Of a stretch of DNA of 64,000 nucleotides, positions 6,651-17,861 are shown piece after piece (the first letter of the stretch is position 1; each line of letters opens with the position of its first letter). Source of the stretch: Epibacterium ulvae (GTDB lineage: Bacteria; Pseudomonadota; Alphaproteobacteria; Rhodobacterales; Rhodobacteraceae); contig NZ_FMWG01000004.1 in assembly GCF_900102795.1 (NCBI RefSeq), forward strand, positions 1 to 64,000, written 5' to 3'. The position numbers were made by a program, and so were the translations under genes. The notes under the pieces are model-generated. The model was not told the DNA's origin and searched no databases. It was given only the letters and a program-made list of their open reading frames with translations.

Positions 6651-7283
6651 CTAGATTTCTACACTTTCAGAAATCGACAAAGCGTCTTCAAGATCAACGC
6701 CCAAATATCGGACAGTGCTGTCCATCTTAGTATGACCAAGAAGGAGTTGAACCGCTCTAAGATTGCCGGTCTTACGGTAAATCTGGGCCACTTTAGTTCG
6801 CCTCATTGAATGAGTGCCATAAGCGCTCGGCTCTAATCCAATAGACTCAACCCAATCCCGAACCAGACGTGCGTATTGGCGGGTGCCAATGTGCGGACGG
6901 TCGTGTATCCGCCCCGGCCATAGAAACTCTGACTTTTGCATTATCGGCATATTCAGCCAATCTTGGAGGGATGTGCGGGTTCCTTCAGTAATCTCAAACC
7001 GAACTGGTTGGCTGGTTTTTCTTTGGATCACTGAGGCGCGTTCCTTCACTTGACCCGCTGCATGCACATCTACAACGCGCAAACGGACGAGATCACAGCC
7101 TCTGAGTTTGCTATCGATGGCCATATTGAACAGCGCCAGATCGCGCACCCGTTTGGAAAGCTCAAGGCGAACACGAATGGCCCAAACATGCTTGGGAAGC
7201 AATGGACGCTTTTGACCTATGATTCGCCCTTTGTTCCAAGGTGCGCGACGCATTCGAATTGCAGGAAGATTGGAAGTTGACAT
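6651..7283 (-). CDS. Short tyrosine recombinase / phage integrase family protein
   Basis: The 210-aa product is essentially a catalytic domain. Visible active-site elements are the first Arg in DSKLRGCDLVRL, a Lys in VIQRKTSQPV, H-x-x-R in THSMRRTK, the His of LLLGHTK, and the nucleophile Tyr in STVRYLG. The ATG at 7283 has a GGAGG ribosome site 8 bases upstream, so the gene is probably translated as this short form and not truncated. Such short integrases are common accessory genes. No attachment site was identified, and whether it acts on the nearby repeats is unknown. Confidence 0.9.
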   Translation of the reverse strand: MSTSNLPAIRMRRAPWNKGRIIGQKRPLLPKHVWAIRVRLELSKRVRDLALFNMAIDSKLRGCDLVRLRVVDVHAAGQVKERASVIQRKTSQPVRFEITEGTRTSLQDWLNMPIMQKSEFLWPGRIHDRPHIGTRQYARLVRDWVESIGLEPSAYGTHSMRRTKVAQIYRKTGNLRAVQLLLGHTKMDSTVRYLGVDLEDALSISESVEI

Positions 7284-7371
7284 GACTGGTCCTCCGACCG
7301 CCACAATCCACCACATCCTCGGCACGATGCCGATAAACCAATAGTACCACCATTGATGGCCACCTAGAACC

Positions 7372-9012: not shown

Positions 9013-9632
9013 CATCCAGCATCGCGCGTCTGTTTCCTGGGCGCGCTTTCTCTTTCACTCATCAGTTGGTGAAAGCGCCATAAAAACTGCTCAAACGTAT
9101 CTTGAAGCGGCAAACACCATTGTCCTGAAACTGTCATCGGCAGAGGCGATAGAAGTTCATGCTGCCGGTGGCGGTTCCAAGATCGCTTAAGGAATACAAT
9201 TTACCCATGCCCGGAAACTGACATTGGCGCAGCCGCAGCGAGTTCACACTTTGTCCCGCACCCCTTCCGTTCGATGATGATTGGTGGATGCACATGCGGC
9301 GAATGCCTGTTCTTTCCATTGCTCGTGCAGCATTTGAACGCCCCTCATCGGCCAGATCCCGCGACTTTGCAAAGGTCACTATCTGCGCCTACCGCTCGCA
9401 GCCCGAAGCAGACACAAGGCCCTTAGCGAGAATTTACCAGAGCTGACCTTCGCTATGCGGGTTGCGAAGGAGGTGGATGCGGGACAGAGTTGCCGTTTAC
9501 TGCTATTACCCCAAGGTCCACTATCTGGTGCTGTTCAATGAACAATCCCGACTTGAATATTGGCGTTGTAGAAGATGCCGGATTGCGCGAGGCTAAGCCT
9601 GTTGATCGCCGCCTCAACGCTTGGAGCCATCG
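9013..9632. other. Long gene-poor stretch with a possible gene fragment
   Basis: No intact gene. On the plus strand, 9071-9190 is open and encodes a protein-like C-terminus (ESAIKTAQTYLEAANTIVLK followed by a short GGGSKIA tail) with no credible start; it may be the end of a lost gene. The rest (9191-9632) shows only short unrecognised frames. Confidence 0.35.
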
Positions 9633-10191: not shown

Positions 10192-10373
10192 AGTCATTAG
10201 CCGCAATTAATACGAAGTGCGGCTCTCGGGGAAAGTGCCGGACTTTACAATTGTCGCTCTCTGCGGTGAGTTGACATTGAACCTTCCAATGTACCTGTGT
10301 CACTCTGTCTCAAAGCAGTTCCAGAAAGGGTGCAGCCCAGTGACAGGCTACATTCGGTCACACTTGATACATG

Positions 10374-12109: not shown

Positions 12110-12943
12110 ATGTCGTTCAGGATCATCAAAAAAGTCAAGCACGTTGGTCTATTAGCTCTTATGATGCAGTCAGGGGCCACCTCTCTCTCAGCGGAGGTAG
12201 ACAAGTATAAATTCCGCGCCCCGCCGCCAGCTGATGCCAGTGCGTCATACTGCGATCATAAGGGAGACCCAGGGTATCCTCACGGAAACATCATTAAACT
12301 AGGTGATCGCGTGTTTCATACCTGCGCACGCTTTGCCTCCAACGCTGTGCTCACGGTAATGAATGCACAACGCCTTCCTGGGTTGCGGTATAATCTCACA
12401 GCATTTTCGACGGGTGTAATGACGGCAGATTTTCAGCACATCACAAAGCGCGGTCGAGAGAACTACCCTGACTTTCGTGAGCGCATCACCTTGGGGGAAG
12501 GTGTTTATTCTGTTTACCATGATGAAGATCGCATAGTGCCGATTGAAGGTAAACCAGATGAAGTGACTACCGCTGGCAATCTGTACGTCTACGAAGGTCC
12601 AGTAGCAGGGGCGCGTGAGCGTGTACCTCACCAAGCCAAGTGCTTTAATGAAAATAAGAAACAGATCGAGAATGGAAGTTATTCCTGCTACATCAGATTT
12701 GACTGGCATGGCCTGTCAACACGAATAAACGTCTGGGCTGGCGGTGATCTGTTTTCACCGATGGAGCACAAGCACTTTCCCGCACTTGTTGACGACCTAC
12801 TCCTTTTGCTCGAAGAGGTTGACGTGACTGATAATCCGTTGCGGCAGGAGTGCATTCGCTCTGGCAATGGCTGGTGGGATGGAGAGTGTCAAAGTGCACA
12901 CAAAATTGACCGACAAATGACTTCCAAAAAGGGTGGCGAGTGA
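12110..12943 (+). CDS. Exported hypothetical protein, first gene of the cassette array
   Basis: About 277 aa from the ATG at 12110 (preceded by AGGTGG; an earlier ATG at 12074 overlaps the divergent RTX start). The N-terminus is a likely signal peptide (basic MSFRIIKKVK, then hydrophobic VGLLALMM, Ala/Ser-rich cleavage region). The mature part has several Cys residues but no family I recognise. Its last residues TSKKGGE are encoded by the first copy of the array repeat, and its TGA overlaps the next ATG (TGATG). Confidence 0.65.
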   Translation: MSFRIIKKVKHVGLLALMMQSGATSLSAEVDKYKFRAPPPADASASYCDHKGDPGYPHGNIIKLGDRVFHTCARFASNAVLTVMNAQRLPGLRYNLTAFSTGVMTADFQHITKRGRENYPDFRERITLGEGVYSVYHDEDRIVPIEGKPDEVTTAGNLYVYEGPVAGARERVPHQAKCFNENKKQIENGSYSCYIRFDWHGLSTRINVWAGGDLFSPMEHKHFPALVDDLLLLLEEVDVTDNPLRQECIRSGNGWWDGECQSAHKIDRQMTSKKGGE

Positions 12944-13224
12944 TGGGACTTATTTTTAGAGCAGTAGAAGCAGCATCTTTCAAGACCGGAATACCACTGG
13001 GGGGACTGTGGCTTCTGTTGCTGACTGCTTGCGGCGGCCTGTGGGTAGTTACTGAGCACCCTTACTATACGCAACGAGATCTGGTGATTGGTTTTTGTAT
13101 GTGGGCTGTTGCGTATTCGGCGATTTGGCTGGCTCATCGCGGGGAGTTTTGGATGGACCCGAAACTTCTGCGATCCCTCAGGGACGCTGAACAAATCAAT
13201 TTCGAGCGAAAAAAAGAGGACTAG
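12943..13224 (+). CDS. Small membrane protein of the array
   Basis: A 93-aa product with two hydrophobic segments (about residues 17-37 and 48-66) and a charged C-terminus ending RKKED. No family recognised. The ATG overlaps the upstream stop by one base and uses the AAGGGTG ribosome site supplied by the first array repeat. It does not carry the repeat-encoded tail; the next repeat begins 27 bases after its stop, past a short GGTTGG/CCGACC hairpin. Confidence 0.6.
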   Translation: MGLIFRAVEAASFKTGIPLGGLWLLLLTACGGLWVVTEHPYYTQRDLVIGFCMWAVAYSAIWLAHRGEFWMDPKLLRSLRDAEQINFERKKED

Positions 13225-13274
13225 CCTCGGTTGGTATAGCCGACCCGCAAGGTTTCCAACAAAGGTGCCGACTG

Positions 13275-13478
13275 ATGGGCAAGGGCCACTGTGATCACCG
13301 GGTTGTGCTGCGCGATCCCGAAGACAAGATCATACAAGATCACCCATTTGAAAGCTTCGCCCGCGCGCAGCCCGAATATGAGCGCCTTGCTGTCTCTGTG
13401 GCGGAGGGCCACGAACTCACGCTACAGCACGGCGCGAGAATAATTTTCAAAACTTCCAAGAAGGGTGCAGATCAATGA
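13275..13478 (+). CDS. Small soluble hypothetical protein of the array
   Basis: A 67-aa product starting MGKGHCDHRVVLRDPEDKII, no membrane segment, unrecognised. Start and ribosome site lie in the second array repeat. Its C-terminus TSKKGADQ is encoded by the third repeat, and the stop overlaps the next ATG (ATGA). Confidence 0.6.
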   Translation: MGKGHCDHRVVLRDPEDKIIQDHPFESFARAQPEYERLAVSVAEGHELTLQHGARIIFKTSKKGADQ

Positions 13479-13648
13479 CCGAGAAACGAATTATCCTTGA
13501 TGAATACGAAAGCACATTGAGCGATGAAGACCGCAAGGTTGCGGCTGAATATGCACGCAGTCGCGTGGTCTCTTCGACCTCAACTGTCGCCACGCAAACC
13601 CCTGAAATGGTTCAAGGTTATGAGACTTCCAACAAAGGTGCGGAATGA
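13475..13648 (+). CDS. 57-aa hypothetical protein of the array
   Basis: Very short reading frame beginning MTEKRIILDEYESTLSDEDR and ending ETSNKGAE, the tail being encoded by the fourth array repeat. It is acidic and probably helical; no family is recognised. It overlaps the preceding gene by 4 bases and the following ATG by one base, so the set is tightly coupled. Support comes from the conserved junction arrangement more than from its own sequence. Confidence 0.5.
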   Translation: MTEKRIILDEYESTLSDEDRKVAAEYARSRVVSSTSTVATQTPEMVQGYETSNKGAE

Positions 13649-13839
13649 TGTTGCGGACTTATGCACCTACAATCGTTGACCTCGCGTATCTGGTCGTTTT
13701 TGTGGTGCTCGGTGCTGTATTGATGTGGCTCACCGGCTTTGGCCCGATCTGGGTTGGCGCGTTGATCGCAGCCTTCTTCTATCCTTGGCAGGGCTTCATC
13801 AGGAGATGGAAAATGGCTTCCAGAAAGGGTGTAGATTGA
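13648..13839 (+). CDS. 63-aa two-helix membrane protein of the array
   Basis: Starts MLRTYAPTIVDLAYLVVFVV and has two predicted membrane helices (about residues 8-30 and 33-48), then a basic stretch and the repeat-encoded tail MASRKGVD. An ATG three bases earlier is possible, but by analogy with other junctions the ATG at repeat position 24 is preferred. No family recognised. Confidence 0.55.
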   Translation: MLRTYAPTIVDLAYLVVFVVLGAVLMWLTGFGPIWVGALIAAFFYPWQGFIRRWKMASRKGVD

Positions 13840-14183
13840 AAGTTCCTTCGCCAGCAATCCTTGTGGAAACACTTGGTGGTTATTCGGCGGCAGCTGCTTT
13901 GATTTTTGTCGGCCTTAAAGGCGGTCAAGTTTTACCGCATGTCCTAGGTGAAAACCCTTGGCCTACATTCTGGCTAGTTGGGCTACTACCATGGTTTGGA
14001 GCGCTCCTATGGATATGGGTGTCAGTATACCTAGCGGCCTATGCGTACCGTCATGTAAAACTGGCGGCGGGCAGTCTAATCGCGATAGTTGCCGCTGCGA
14101 CCATGTTTTTGATCGGCGGTGTTTCCAGCTTTGTAGCTTTTGTCGTGATCATAGTTGAGTTTTCAGGGTACCTAACAAAGTAA
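13836..14183 (+). CDS. 115-aa three-helix membrane protein of the array
   Basis: Starts with TTG inside the fifth repeat (protein MKVPSPAILVETLGGYSAAA), overlapping the previous stop (TTGA), with AAAGGG as ribosome site. Three hydrophobic segments are visible (about residues 13-30, 44-70, 76-105). It ends GYLTK; its TAA shares one base with the sixth repeat, so the tail is not appended. Function unknown. Confidence 0.55.
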   Translation: MKVPSPAILVETLGGYSAAAALIFVGLKGGQVLPHVLGENPWPTFWLVGLLPWFGALLWIWVSVYLAAYAYRHVKLAAGSLIAIVAAATMFLIGGVSSFVAFVVIIVEFSGYLTK

Positions 14184-14205
14184 CTTCCAAGAAAGGTGCC
14201 GGTGA

Positions 14206-14445
14206 ATGAGGGTTTCCAAGAACAATCGAACAGCGGCTGCGCAGCTATTGCAGCGACTTGATCCAGCGTCGTATGATGCACGTTGCCTACGCGAACTGGT
14301 CGCCTGCTATGACAACAAAGAGCCGGTTGATGAAGCCATTTACAGCGATGCTTGCGCTATACTGAGCAACGCATTTCAACCGCCATACATTCCAGACGAA
14401 CATGGTAATCCGGTCAAGAACCCAGCGCTCATGGACGCTTCCTGA
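14206..14445 (+). CDS. 79-aa soluble hypothetical protein of the array
   Basis: Starts MRVSKNNRTAAAQLLQRLDP, soluble, unrecognised. It ends MDAS because the seventh repeat has TCCTGA where others have TCCAGA or TCCAAG: a single A-to-T change turns the repeat-encoded tail into a stop in the same frame. That makes this copy a natural test of whether the tail matters. Confidence 0.55.
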   Translation: MRVSKNNRTAAAQLLQRLDPASYDARCLRELVACYDNKEPVDEAIYSDACAILSNAFQPPYIPDEHGNPVKNPALMDAS

Positions 14446-14538
14446 AAAGGTGCCGCAAAATCATGACAAAGGGATATTCATCCTCTTGCAATAGAATATC
14501 CCAAAATGTATATACAGCATATCACATGGAGATATGCA

Positions 14539-14793
14539 ATGCCCCTCTACATACGAGATGATCAAGTCAACGACTTGGCCGAAACTGCTCTAAAGATAAC
14601 CGGCAGGACAAACAAAACAGAGCTGGTTAGGGACGCCTTGGAGGCGTTTATTCATGTTCACAGCGCCAAGGAAAGCCTCTCCGATAAAGTAGCAAAGATC
14701 CAAGCAAAAGCTGCTGAACACGGTATTGTAGCAGATGGTGCGGACGACAAGAGCTTGATGGATGATGCGTGGGGCGAACCTGATGTTCATTGA
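14539..14793 (+). CDS. vapB: VapB/PSK-type antitoxin
   Basis: An 84-aa protein starting MPLYIRDDQVNDLAETALKI, typical of the Rv0623/PSK-like VapB antitoxins: an N-terminal ribbon-helix-helix-like DNA-binding part (TGRTNKTELVRDALEAF) and an acidic C-terminus (DKSLMDDAWGEPDVH). GGAGAT precedes the ATG. Unlike the other array genes it has its own ~75-base upstream region with AT-rich inverted sequence (around GTATATAC), as expected for an autoregulated toxin-antitoxin promoter. It overlaps vapC by 11 bases. Confidence 0.85.
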   Translation: MPLYIRDDQVNDLAETALKITGRTNKTELVRDALEAFIHVHSAKESLSDKVAKIQAKAAEHGIVADGADDKSLMDDAWGEPDVH

Positions 14794-15208
14794 CGCCAGT
14801 GCTGTGGTCGCTGTGATCAAAGGTGAACCAGAAGCCCAAGCGTTATTGAAGGCCATGGGGTTGCGCGAGGGGAAGCTGATCGCGTCGCCAATCGTGCGTA
14901 TGGAGGCAACACTTGCGCTTGCGAGAACACGCAAAGAGCAACGTGGCGAAACCCATATGACCACCGAGGACTTTGACGTAGCTGGTCAGCTCGTGACAGA
15001 GTTTTTCCACTCTGCGAAAATTCGGGAAGTCCACATTACAGAAAGCACTGGCAAGGCAGCCTGTGATGCGCTGGCCCGATATGGAAAAGTCGTAGGCCAC
15101 CCAGCGAAGCTGAACCTTGGCGATGCTTTGTCTTATGCCTGCGCCAAGGCACACCACCAGCCTTTGCTCTACAAAGGCGATGATTTCAAACATACTGATC
15201 TTGCTTGA
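14783..15208 (+). CDS. vapC: VapC-family PIN-domain ribonuclease toxin
   Basis: The 141-aa PIN domain protein starts MFIDASAVVAVIKGE and shows the acidic metal-binding residues expected: Asp in FIDASA, Glu in RMEATLAL and Asp in LGDALSYACAK near the C-terminus. VapC toxins cleave specific RNAs, often tRNAs. It partners with the overlapping VapB. The pair sits between the seventh and eighth junction repeats, like a cassette of the array. Confidence 0.9.
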   Translation: MFIDASAVVAVIKGEPEAQALLKAMGLREGKLIASPIVRMEATLALARTRKEQRGETHMTTEDFDVAGQLVTEFFHSAKIREVHITESTGKAACDALARYGKVVGHPAKLNLGDALSYACAKAHHQPLLYKGDDFKHTDLA

Positions 15209-15246
15209 ACAGCAAGCAAACAGATTTCCAACAAAGGTGCAGATTG

Positions 15247-15402
15247 ATGGCAATTTCGCTGCCAGAAAAGATTGCAATCTATCACCGCAACCTCGTCCGA
15301 TATGAACAGGAAGGTGATACTGAAAAAATCGAGGTACAGCGACGGTTAATTGCTCGCCTCGAAAACGAACTAGCTTCCAGAAAAGGTGCAGATGACCCTT
15401 AA
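15247..15402 (+). CDS. 51-aa last gene of the array
   Basis: Starts MAISLPEKIAIYHRNLVRYE in the eighth repeat and ends ELASRKGADDP, with the tail encoded by the ninth and last repeat. The protein is mostly helical and charged. After it the array stops; 15403-15632 holds no supported gene. Confidence 0.5.
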   Translation: MAISLPEKIAIYHRNLVRYEQEGDTEKIEVQRRLIARLENELASRKGADDP

Positions 15403-15632: not shown

Positions 15633-16877
15633 TTAGGGCCACTCCCAATCTCTAAAACGGGTGAATGCATCGGCAATTTGCTTAGCTGCATTTTGATTGA
15701 TTACTTGGCCTGAATTCGAATAGACGGTGATTTCTTGCTGGGCCGGTACATACTTCGTAAATGGTTTCTTTAACGGAGGTTTCAAACCGGTAATTCTGTT
15801 GTAATCATTAGGCCCCGGAGTTTTGAGCCAGCAAAGGCTAATCACGCTTGCTCCTGCTGCCTGAGCAAAGGCACGAGCTGCTTCTAATGAATGGCCTTGG
15901 GTGCAGATGTCATCGACCATCAATATCGTTTTGTCCTTCACGTTGGGCCTGCTCTTATATCGGCCCCCGACAGCGCCGGTCTTAAGCGGGTCTGACCTAA
16001 GGTGAATGGTTGATAGCTGATTGTCCGCGGATGGTTGCAAGCCTTTGTTTCGCGACTCTTGGGACTTAGGAGCATTTTGATGCCTGATAACATAGTCTTG
16101 CAGATAGCGGGCCCGCAGTGATCCAGCGGCAATGCTCACGGCTTGCATTAGCTCTGCTTTTTTGGATGTTGTTTTATGGCCGGGATATGGAACTACGTAT
16201 GAAGCCTCCGCTCCGATGCCCGAAAGGTGCATTCTTGCGGCCATGAGCAACCCCCAAAACCTAAGGTCACCAAGGCCGAACTTTACAGCATTCTTAGCGT
16301 CGGTTGAGTAGGTGGCGGCGTCAGGATAAGCTCTCGAATACTCGCCTAAGGGCGCAATTGTGTAGACGCGCAAGTCACCGTCCTCAATCCCCCAAAACCA
16401 GTCTCCGGGTGTGAGACAACAACAGTCAACAAATTTTGCGATATCCTTTGGAGAATTGAACTCAAACCCGAACGGACTATTCGCCTCGTGCCATTTTGCA
16501 TTCAGGAGCAATAAGCCACCGTTTGATGCAGCTTGAATATCTTCCTGTGTATTTCCAATGTAAACGACTTCTTGCGGCGTCCACCCATGGTTTTCCAGCA
16601 CATGCTGCATGGCAGCGGCATATTGCTTGTATTCCATATCTCTGCCGCCTTGATAGTAAGGTAACTCTTGACCGACGAGGCGTGAGAAATAGTCGTTGAA
16701 TGGCTCTTTGGTCCCCACCATCGTCCATGTTGAGTTGCTAACCAACACAGGCTGCACCCCGACAGAGATCAGGTATTCTATCAATTTGACTGTCTCAAAG
16801 ATCGTATCTTGGTCCGCCTCGCCTTCCCTAGCCAAGACATTCCTCAGGGAAAAAATAGCGCCACGTAACGTGTGCAT
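15633..16877 (-). CDS. HAD-like / phosphoribosyltransferase fusion protein
   Basis: A 414-aa two-domain protein. Residues ~1-150 resemble a HAD fold: VLVSNST (motif II position) and VVYIGNTQEDIQAA (motif IV). The expected DxD of motif I is replaced (GAIFSLRNVL), so the nucleophile Asp is not apparent. Residues ~195-360 resemble a type I phosphoribosyltransferase, with the PRPP-binding motif ILMVDDICTQGHS at 318-330. ATG 16877 has AAGGAG upstream. It follows the DprA-like gene by 9 bases and is surely co-transcribed. HAD and PRTase modules beside DprA-like proteins appear in predicted stress-response or phage-defence loci; the function is unproven. Confidence 0.8.
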   Translation of the reverse strand: MHTLRGAIFSLRNVLAREGEADQDTIFETVKLIEYLISVGVQPVLVSNSTWTMVGTKEPFNDYFSRLVGQELPYYQGGRDMEYKQYAAAMQHVLENHGWTPQEVVYIGNTQEDIQAASNGGLLLLNAKWHEANSPFGFEFNSPKDIAKFVDCCCLTPGDWFWGIEDGDLRVYTIAPLGEYSRAYPDAATYSTDAKNAVKFGLGDLRFWGLLMAARMHLSGIGAEASYVVPYPGHKTTSKKAELMQAVSIAAGSLRARYLQDYVIRHQNAPKSQESRNKGLQPSADNQLSTIHLRSDPLKTGAVGGRYKSRPNVKDKTILMVDDICTQGHSLEAARAFAQAAGASVISLCWLKTPGPNDYNRITGLKPPLKKPFTKYVPAQQEITVYSNSGQVINQNAAKQIADAFTRFRDWEWP

Positions 16878-16886
16878 AACTACTCC

Positions 16887-17861
16887 TTATAATAGCTTGA
16901 GTTGAGTGCTCTTTGATCTTGGCTCAGATTTCAGATGCCGAAGCACAAATTTAACAAAACTTTCTTGTTCAGTTGGGATGGTAAAAAAGCCATTATGCGG
17001 CACGTATTCGCGAGGCACCCAACCAAGGTCTGGTTGCGTTGGAGTTCTTAGAAATGCAATGGGGCGTGATAGTTCATGCGCGTTTCGAACCGTGTGCGCT
17101 GTGCCACTCTTTACAGCCCATTCTGTTGGAATAAGTAAGTTTCCCAATGCGGCTTGAAGTCTGTTACGGCGTACAAAGTTTGCGGCGCTGTATCCCTCCT
17201 TAATCAGGTACTCGGTCGCTATAGCACCGCCATTGTCCAGAATTGTGTATCTCAGCCTATCTGAACCTTTTGGAAACTCAGTGAAAATACCAGTTCCAAG
17301 AAACGCAATCGTCGGGACGCCAGCATTGATGCTGGCGGAGTGAATTTCTTGATCAATCCCATCGGCTAAGCCACTTACAGTCGGAGCGCCGAACTCTGAC
17401 AACCAATGTCCAACATATCGAGTAAGCCATACTCCATCCTGTGACGTTTTCCGCGATCCAACTACGGAGATGGATCGCCGCGACAGAACATCAGTTTGAC
17501 CTTGAACAAACAGCCAGCGAGGGGTGTTGCTAAGATCGTTCAGTTGTGGAGGAAAATCCCTGTCGCCCGGAAAAACGATCGAGACGTTGGACGAAGCCAA
17601 CTCCTGACACCTGCGCTTCGCGCTATCCATTGCTCGTTTGCGGGTTTCGCACCAAGCCTGACCAGCATTGCCGTTTCCCTGTAGTTCAGATCTCCCCAAG
17701 AGGCTTCGCACGTCATCAGCGTTCTCAAGTTCGATCACACTTTGAAAAGACTTCCCCGATGCGGAAATTCGTCGCAGAGTCTCGAAACCAACGCCCTTGA
17801 TGGCGCTGAGAGCTAGAAACGCGACGCGTTCCGCATCGAAATGGTCTTCCGCAACTTCCAA
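16887..17861 (-). CDS. DprA/Smf-like protein
   Basis: A 324-aa protein with a helix-hairpin-helix-like N-terminus (LSAIKGVGFETLRRI, 18-32) and a DprA Rossmann-like domain: ISVVGSRKTS (131-140), VSGLADGIDQEIHSA (162-176), FVRRNRLQAALG (229-240) and KSGTAHTVRNA (251-261). Classical DprA loads RecA on single-stranded DNA in transformation. This one differs from a housekeeping dprA in being coupled to a HAD-PRTase gene inside an island, which suggests a specialised role. The start is uncertain: no in-frame ATG lies near the N-terminus and TTG at 17861 is used here. Confidence 0.85.
   Translation of the reverse strand: MEVAEDHFDAERVAFLALSAIKGVGFETLRRISASGKSFQSVIELENADDVRSLLGRSELQGNGNAGQAWCETRKRAMDSAKRRCQELASSNVSIVFPGDRDFPPQLNDLSNTPRWLFVQGQTDVLSRRSISVVGSRKTSQDGVWLTRYVGHWLSEFGAPTVSGLADGIDQEIHSASINAGVPTIAFLGTGIFTEFPKGSDRLRYTILDNGGAIATEYLIKEGYSAANFVRRNRLQAALGNLLIPTEWAVKSGTAHTVRNAHELSRPIAFLRTPTQPDLGWVPREYVPHNGFFTIPTEQESFVKFVLRHLKSEPRSKSTQLKLL

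Follow-up and report, generated by a model that had tools for sequence, protein, structure and literature searches.

Known systems and the locus

Integrons are a platform for collecting single genes and occur as arrays headed by a recombinase or as orphan attC clusters. The stretch of DNA analysed here (64,000 nt of Epibacterium ulvae, positions 1 to 64,000 of contig NZ_FMWG01000004.1; hereafter the window) holds an array of small genes, or cassettes, which meet at nine copies of a short repeat, the junction. Like integron arrays and orphan attC clusters, this array and its counterparts, which occur in certain marine bacteria and on their plasmids, consist of unrelated, small and mostly unknown genes in one orientation, with exchange of single units at a constant boundary. 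Again as in integrons, some genomes encode a recombinase at one end of the array, others have orphan arrays, and a toxin–antitoxin cassette is included. Unlike in integrons, attC cores are not above background, there is no folded site, no link to IntI was found, the recombinase is of the serine class, and the boundary is also a stop, a ribosome site and a start. By the tests below the array is not an integron, and our data suggest an integron-like gene-shuffling system for which no earlier description was found.

A sequence-only reading of the window had noted a lack of attC-like paired cores at the repeats, and this was confirmed. Nine 130-bp windows around the junctions held two GTTRRRY/RYYYAAC cores against 1.88 expected from 2000 random windows, and both core types occurred at one junction of nine (14184; background fraction 0.009). 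The junctions gave no Rfam match at E≤0.1, and no unusual folding was found at them (z from −0.52 to 1.79). An attC or other structured-RNA nature of the junction was rejected on the core counts, Rfam and folding.

Cluster K mycobacteriophages carry Start-Associated Sequences, described in the available part of the report as a short asymmetric repeat just 5′ of starts and of unknown function (PMC3203893). As with the junction, a short repeat stands before the starts of unrelated genes, mostly in one orientation; the phage sequence is 5′-GGGATAGGAGCCC, whereas the core here is TTCCARNAARGGTGC, and that part of the report mentions no association with a recombinase (PMC3203893). The CUP regulon of IncN plasmids, as far as the available part of its report goes, likewise places plasmid accessory genes behind repeated elements and differs in arrangement from plasmid to plasmid, the backbones including resD; promoters and ArdK sites are part of the CUP elements, whereas a 15-bp junction at the ribosome site is found here (PMC5371602). 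No serine-recombinase cassette array was recognised in open-access full text, in the parts available, so absence from print is not established. For the CUP-controlled regulon, Delver and Belogurov 1997 is reportedly an earlier reference. Known small serine recombinases act on paired inversion or resolution sites, whereas the sites considered here are many directly repeated gene junctions.

The array and its junctions

The cassettes of the window are ordered SEC, MEM, MGKG, MTEK, MMLR, LKVP, MRVS, VapBC and MAIS. The features are listed below with their evidence (C24 is a further contig of the same genome; L030 is a locus with a third leader copy).

10229..10336, + strand: leader whose end is a lone junction (10318-10336) not followed directly by a cassette gene; homology to C24 and L030
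12074..12943, + strand: cassette 1 (SEC), 289 aa, exported-looking by eye, no Pfam match; homology to C24
12921..12939, + strand: junction 1; 26-mer match and weight matrix
12943..13224, + strand: cassette 2 (MEM), small membrane-like protein by eye; homology to C24
13253..13271, + strand: junction 2, past a stop codon; 26-mer match and weight matrix
13275..13478, + strand: cassette 3 (MGKG); homology to a Celeribacter cassette
13453..13471, + strand: junction 3; 26-mer match and weight matrix
13475..13648, + strand: cassette 4 (MTEK), 57 aa, no Pfam match; open reading frame (ORF)
13626..13644, + strand: junction 4; 26-mer match and weight matrix
13645..13839, + strand: cassette 5 (MMLR), small membrane-like protein by eye; ORF
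13817..13835, + strand: junction 5; weight matrix
13836..14183, + strand: cassette 6 (LKVP), membrane-like by eye, TTG start; reading frame
14184..14202, + strand: junction 6, past a stop codon; 26-mer match and weight matrix
14206..14445, + strand: cassette 7 (MRVS), 79 aa; ORF
14438..14456, + strand: junction 7, degenerate (TTCCTGAAAAGGTGC); weight matrix
14539..14793, + strand: cassette 8a, VapB antitoxin; PF07704 and PF09957
14786..15208, + strand: cassette 8b, VapC PIN toxin; PF01850
15225..15243, + strand: junction 8, past a stop codon; 26-mer match and weight matrix
15247..15402, + strand: cassette 9 (MAIS), 51 aa; homology to C24
15374..15392, + strand: junction 9; weight matrix

All nine repeat copies named in the sequence-only reading were recovered by its 26-mer and a 19-bp weight matrix. 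They span 12921-15392 on the + strand (the first bases of the 19-mers are the first coordinates of the junction lines), each where two small genes meet, and a tenth, lone copy lies at 10318 behind the leader. With up to three mismatches, the 26-mer found six copies in the window vs none in 100 shuffles; the copies at 13817, 14438 and 15374 are more degenerate across the 26 bp and scored 24.4, 21.8 and 29.8 bits with the matrix, whose training set is the junction copies themselves. The 26-bp repeat is thus real, but in a logo built from 46 copies (window, plasmid counterpart and three further genomes) strong conservation is confined to a 15-bp core, within which TCC (44, 45 and 44 of 46) and GGT (46, 46 and 45 of 46) are near-fixed and TTCC is almost as conserved as GGTG. 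In the same logo, the core is followed by a weaker NGA and then the start-codon region, and the flanks are nearly free of information, apart from slight A-richness upstream.

At each junction the next gene finds a Shine–Dalgarno-like sequence, and the preceding gene often has its stop region there. The repeat had been read as a C-terminal tail, which holds for the six window copies translated as the end of the upstream gene, every one of them read as ..T TCC AAN.., but fails for the three (13253, 14184 and 15225) that sit past a stop codon. These untranslated copies score 27.4, 28.2 and 28.3 bits vs 21.8 to 30.9 for the translated six. By our count in 45 copies, a frame that runs into the junction after staying open for at least 40 codons was frame A 21 times and frames B and C four times each, and frame A stopped 18 to 27 nt on, close to the next start, in 16 of its 21 cases. 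Because the untranslated copies score as high and free third codon positions are near-fixed, the constraint acts on DNA or RNA, and the tail peptide is ruled out as the conserved item.

The cassette bodies were also correctly described as unrelated: an all-against-all blastp of the ten window proteins at E≤1 returned nothing better than E 0.037, over nine residues of the common tail. The bodies do not align with one another, and descent from one duplicated gene was rejected on this ground. Among the cassette proteins, Pfam names VapB and VapC only, bearing out the proposed VapBC pair.

Evidence for exchange of cassettes between arrays

Further array copies in the window genome (G000) lie on two plasmid-like contigs, C24 (50.4 kb) and C7 (12.9 kb). 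VirB-type transfer genes and ParA/ParB-like genes were recognised by eye among the translations of C24. On C24, SEC is followed by other genes, then MEM and then a cassette termed MSIG; MAIS lies separately, on the other strand from the main plasmid array, and a leader resembling 10229-10336 stands before the other MSIG copy.

SEC is 91 % identical in DNA to C24 (12028-12943), with its right end at a junction and its left end not, while MEM (84.7 % across 12922-13271) and MAIS (92.6 % in DNA across 15228-15389) have both ends at junctions. The leader matches the C24 leader before the MSIG copy, at the end of C24, at 86 % over 107 bp, and more weakly the L030 copy, at 71 % over 90 bp; in both, homology stops at the junction on the right and not on the left. 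VapC shares 96 % protein identity with its plasmid copy. The Celeribacter homologue of MGKG (70.6 % DNA and 66 % protein identity) sits between two junctions, where homology ends. Across seven common units (SEC, MEM, MAIS, leader, VapBC, MGKG and MSIG, excluding the L030 leader match), 11 of the 14 ends of common segments found by BLASTN lay within ~5 bp of a junction, so that single-gene cassettes are exchanged at a constant boundary with three exceptions. The expectation that the same genes would recur reordered at exact repeat boundaries is borne out by the second array and these 11 ends, but not by the three off a junction. Gene order conserved without repeats, named beforehand as grounds for rejecting a cassette array, was not found in the genomes searched, although VapBC alone occurs without junctions on a plasmid.

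MSIG is duplicated, but because C24 and C7 both break inside it, the contigs show no more than halves of it, two left and two right. The copies are 99 to 100 % identical; the left halves differ in their left neighbour and the right halves in their right neighbour. The core is common to every copy, so alignments always pass through it, and what is informative is that they go no further and from which base the copies differ. At the 3′ end, the two copies of MSIG, and likewise those of MAIS, agree in every base through GGTGC and show no relation beyond it. At the 5′ end, relation is absent as far as the core and the copies are near-identical from GGTGC onward, the core differing at position 10 in both cassettes and at position 7 in MAIS. 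These differences place the swap point inside GGTGC, at core positions 11 to 15. From TTCC to the swap point there are about ten to twelve bases, and serine recombinase half-sites are of about this length.

Some smaller observations concern the same contigs. All four ends of C7 and C24 lie in near-identical MSIG copies, and the two contigs may close a circle of ~63 kb with MSIG as an inverted repeat. About 50 bp behind the C7 junction, L029 525-616 is 82.6 % identical over 92 bp to window 9391-9482, which lies ~0.75 kb before the window's leader. The plasmid VapBC copy (L031 8575-7818 vs window 14451-15208) abuts on its left a transposase-like fragment, which we take to be IS3-like; the point of contact corresponds exactly to the start of the window's junction core.

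A serine recombinase clade beside the arrays

In Celeribacter and in the congener G015, the 3′ end of a gene for a serine recombinase of 214 to 216 residues marks the beginning of the array. The array-associated recombinase carries the Resolvase catalytic domain (PF00239, E 3e-45 and 6.3e-45); for a C-terminal HTH_7 domain it scored 18.1 and 17.9 bits, below the cut-off of 23.8. Residues 8-194 and 9-190 of the Celeribacter protein match DNA invertase 3uj3 and gamma-delta resolvase 1zr2/1zr4, and the recombinase is related to the Gin-type invertase and gamma-delta resolvase. Its best plasmid relatives among the matches listed are from Xanthobacter dioxanivorans (64 %), Agrobacterium (59 %; pAtG3_79c, L116 8001-8621) and Thalassospira (53 %). 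On the Xanthobacter plasmid, the gene stands between two diverging rows of small genes with junctions of TTCCAAYTGAGGAG and close variants (TTCCAACTGAGGAG-type). In Thalassospira, where the recombinase is encoded at the head of the array, and in Agrobacterium, TTCCARAWAAGG occurs at the recombinase end and again, once or twice, beyond it. A sixth clade member (G621:C17) has TTCCAACTGACGG at the gene end and a copy ending the diverging gene.

TTCCAA lies at the 3′ end of four of the six clade genes, and tandem TTCCA boxes spaced 13 bp apart lie upstream of all six, with two pairs per gene except in Xanthobacter, which has one strict pair; in several records the boxes lie between diverging genes. 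As a control, the best 80 of 555 viral-contig relatives, many of them near-copies, had no tandem pair upstream (70 testable, with at least 150 bp upstream); TTCCAA occurred upstream in one of these 80, and a single junction-like match in three. A set of 39 recombinase loci comprised four unreadable, five of the clade and 30 readable ones outside it, none of the 30 with a downstream junction. In a tree of 53 recombinases all six clade members lie to one side of a single, weakly supported branch (64/59), a subset of four grouping at 99/98, and a single origin of the trait fits this weakly supported tree. The recombinase is named the likely agent because tandem TTCCA boxes and TTCCAA junctions co-occur in the clade; the link between clade and junctions is one of association.

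The Xanthobacter record (L115, NZ_CP063365.1) has two protelomerase-family genes, which would suit a linear plasmid closed by hairpins, yet it is recorded as circular. The window's leader shows only a short likeness in alignment (TGTGTCA...CT...TCAAAG) to the recombinase promoter, and the idea that it is a relic of one was not accepted.

Proposed explanation and alternatives

We put the chance at about one in two that this is an array of small-gene cassettes whose junction serves translation and recombination alike, with the TTCCAA-clade serine recombinase as its inferred enzyme. What the comparisons show directly is the junction with its conservation and preferred frame, the base-level swap boundaries, the reordered common cassettes and the association of the recombinase clade with TTCCAA boxes. 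One cassette would extend from the GGTGC core of one junction to TTCCARNAAR of the next. As RNA, the junction would end the upstream gene, often by a TGATG-like overlap, provide the Shine–Dalgarno-like AAGGTG/AAGGGTG and start the next gene, so that any cassette behind any other would be translated. As DNA, it would be a recombination site with its exchange point within GGTGC; exchange there would join the upstream AAR and the downstream GGTG into a ribosome site, so that swaps would never lose translation. We infer translational coupling and a common promoter, from which the cassettes would be read as one message. Swapping or cutting at the junction would be carried out by a serine recombinase of the TTCCAA clade, among the relatives of the Gin invertase and gamma-delta resolvase, and the window array and its plasmid counterpart would be orphan arrays, retained in a genome in which this recombinase was not found.

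Several findings weigh against this explanation. The sequence-only reading had supposed a point of recombination at which small genes are shuffled together with their expression signals; the reordered cassettes with new neighbours support this, but circles and enzyme activity remain predictions from sequence, and no excised circle or time series was seen. Three of the 14 homology ends lie off a junction (SEC left, leader left and VapBC right, the last 17 bp short), and junctions are absent from both flanks of the plasmid VapBC copy, which makes it a counter-example to clean cassette transfer. Small serine recombinases normally act on inverted half-sites, and clear dyad symmetry was not seen in the junction, its right half included. 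General short-homology deletion between 15-bp repeats could explain some swaps. The clade recombinase was not found in the window genome, a 30-contig draft (best match 45 %), on which account the window arrays look like orphans, nor in the Aliiroseovarius genome (best match 43 %), and junctions are more degenerate in Celeribacter, which has the recombinase, than in the window genome, where none was found. Within the clade, G621 has no clear array, the G015 and Xanthobacter genes carry only a degenerate motif at the 3′ end, and the Agrobacterium protein has Leu in place of the Ser of the YARVS motif found in the other five. We take this Ser to be the catalytic serine, and the Agrobacterium protein may therefore bind DNA without recombining. 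A single upstream TTCCAA was also present in six of the 30 readable relatives outside the clade (~2 expected from length, by our estimate), in five of the six at −114 to −126, so it may be older than the clade or due to chance.

An alternative that we regard as possible but doubtful is that the junction is a translation signal alone, start-associated and coupling small operon genes, with shuffling by short-homology or homologous recombination between repeats and the adjacent recombinase being a plasmid multimer resolvase in a hot spot. The position and spacing of the junction suit a ribosome site, one reading frame dominates and mostly stops near the next start, and phages with start-associated repeats on unrelated genes are known from the available part of their report (PMC3203893). 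Arrays without a detected recombinase are, in addition, well conserved; taken with the less regular junctions of Celeribacter, this points either to orphan arrays or to conservation for a second reason that lies in translation. A ribosome site does not need TTCC, however, yet TTCC is conserved almost like GGTG; the tandem TTCCA boxes upstream of the clade recombinase lie away from junctions, and the breakpoints are confined to a 5-bp core. In another alternative, TTCCAA would be the operator of a regulator, possibly the recombinase as repressor, in a plasmid regulon over all cassettes with shuffling secondary. The place of the tandem boxes upstream of the recombinase, between diverging genes in several records, the Agrobacterium protein without the Ser of YARVS and the comparable CUP regulon on IncN plasmids, as described in the available part of its report (PMC5371602), are consistent with an operator, but the junctions stand directly at the ribosome sites of tightly spaced genes and nothing promoter-like is conserved around them, and we consider this explanation improbable. 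A degenerate integron or attC-type array would suit the variable small genes, the toxin–antitoxin pair and a tyrosine-recombinase-like ORF seen by eye at 6651-7325, but is hardly credible with cores at background, no Rfam match and no unusual folding. That ORF had no tblastn match in 17 array-bearing or related loci, no whole-genome IntI profile search having been made.

The cassette array with a dual-purpose junction is our preferred explanation. Its wider form, that this is a largely plasmid-borne, alphaproteobacterial serine-recombinase counterpart of the integron, which captures and shuffles small genes at a 15-bp stop/ribosome-site/start, is proposed tentatively and falls somewhat short of an even chance. 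If true, it would be a second gene-capture platform, with another recombinase class and a site doubling as a translation junction; single-gene capture would have evolved more than once, and unknown small plasmid genes could be found with the junction as a marker. Should the junction prove to be translational alone, it would be a bacterial and plasmid analogue of the phage start-associated sequences.

Distribution and neighbouring features

With one genome per species in the comparison set, an exact pattern scan gave matches in 2 of 18 genomes of the genus, in 4 of 195 relatives, with arrays in two (G000 and G015, a congener), and in 3 of 394 genomes of the family, with an array in G000 only. 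A stricter pattern found 24 stretches in a collection of 84,980 species; three were arrays with at least three copies, from the uncultured Aliiroseovarius 3-2109, Celeribacter naphthalenivorans EaN35-2 and CANMIX010000008.1 (an uncultured Rhodobacteraceae contig). Within the scanned genomes the system is rare and patchy. A viral origin of the arrays was rejected, as none of 28 viral stretches with the pattern was an array. A recombinase search at E≤1e-45 returned none in the 394 family genomes, which carries no weight without a known positive in the set, G015 not being among the 20 listed. A plasmid search with SEC, MGKG and MRVS, three of the ten window cassettes, gave no match (MRVS by tblastn).

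G015 and Aliiroseovarius have another cassette family in common, in different neighbourhoods. Inside the Aliiroseovarius array region, L105 13847-18273 is a perfect tandem duplication with a period of 2213 bp, carrying genes that are presumably IS66-like. A quadruple-TTCCA pattern in 398 genomes of the phylum found one tandem repeat (L152), with no recombinase-like ORF listed there. Five distant serine recombinases (L130, L132, L137, L143 and L147) have one TTCCAA at −114 to −126, as the clade's first box. Just past the window array, an ORF at 15633-16877 appears HAD-like and phosphoribosyltransferase-like by eye, and is adjoined by a DprA-like ORF, also recognised by eye, at 16887-17861.

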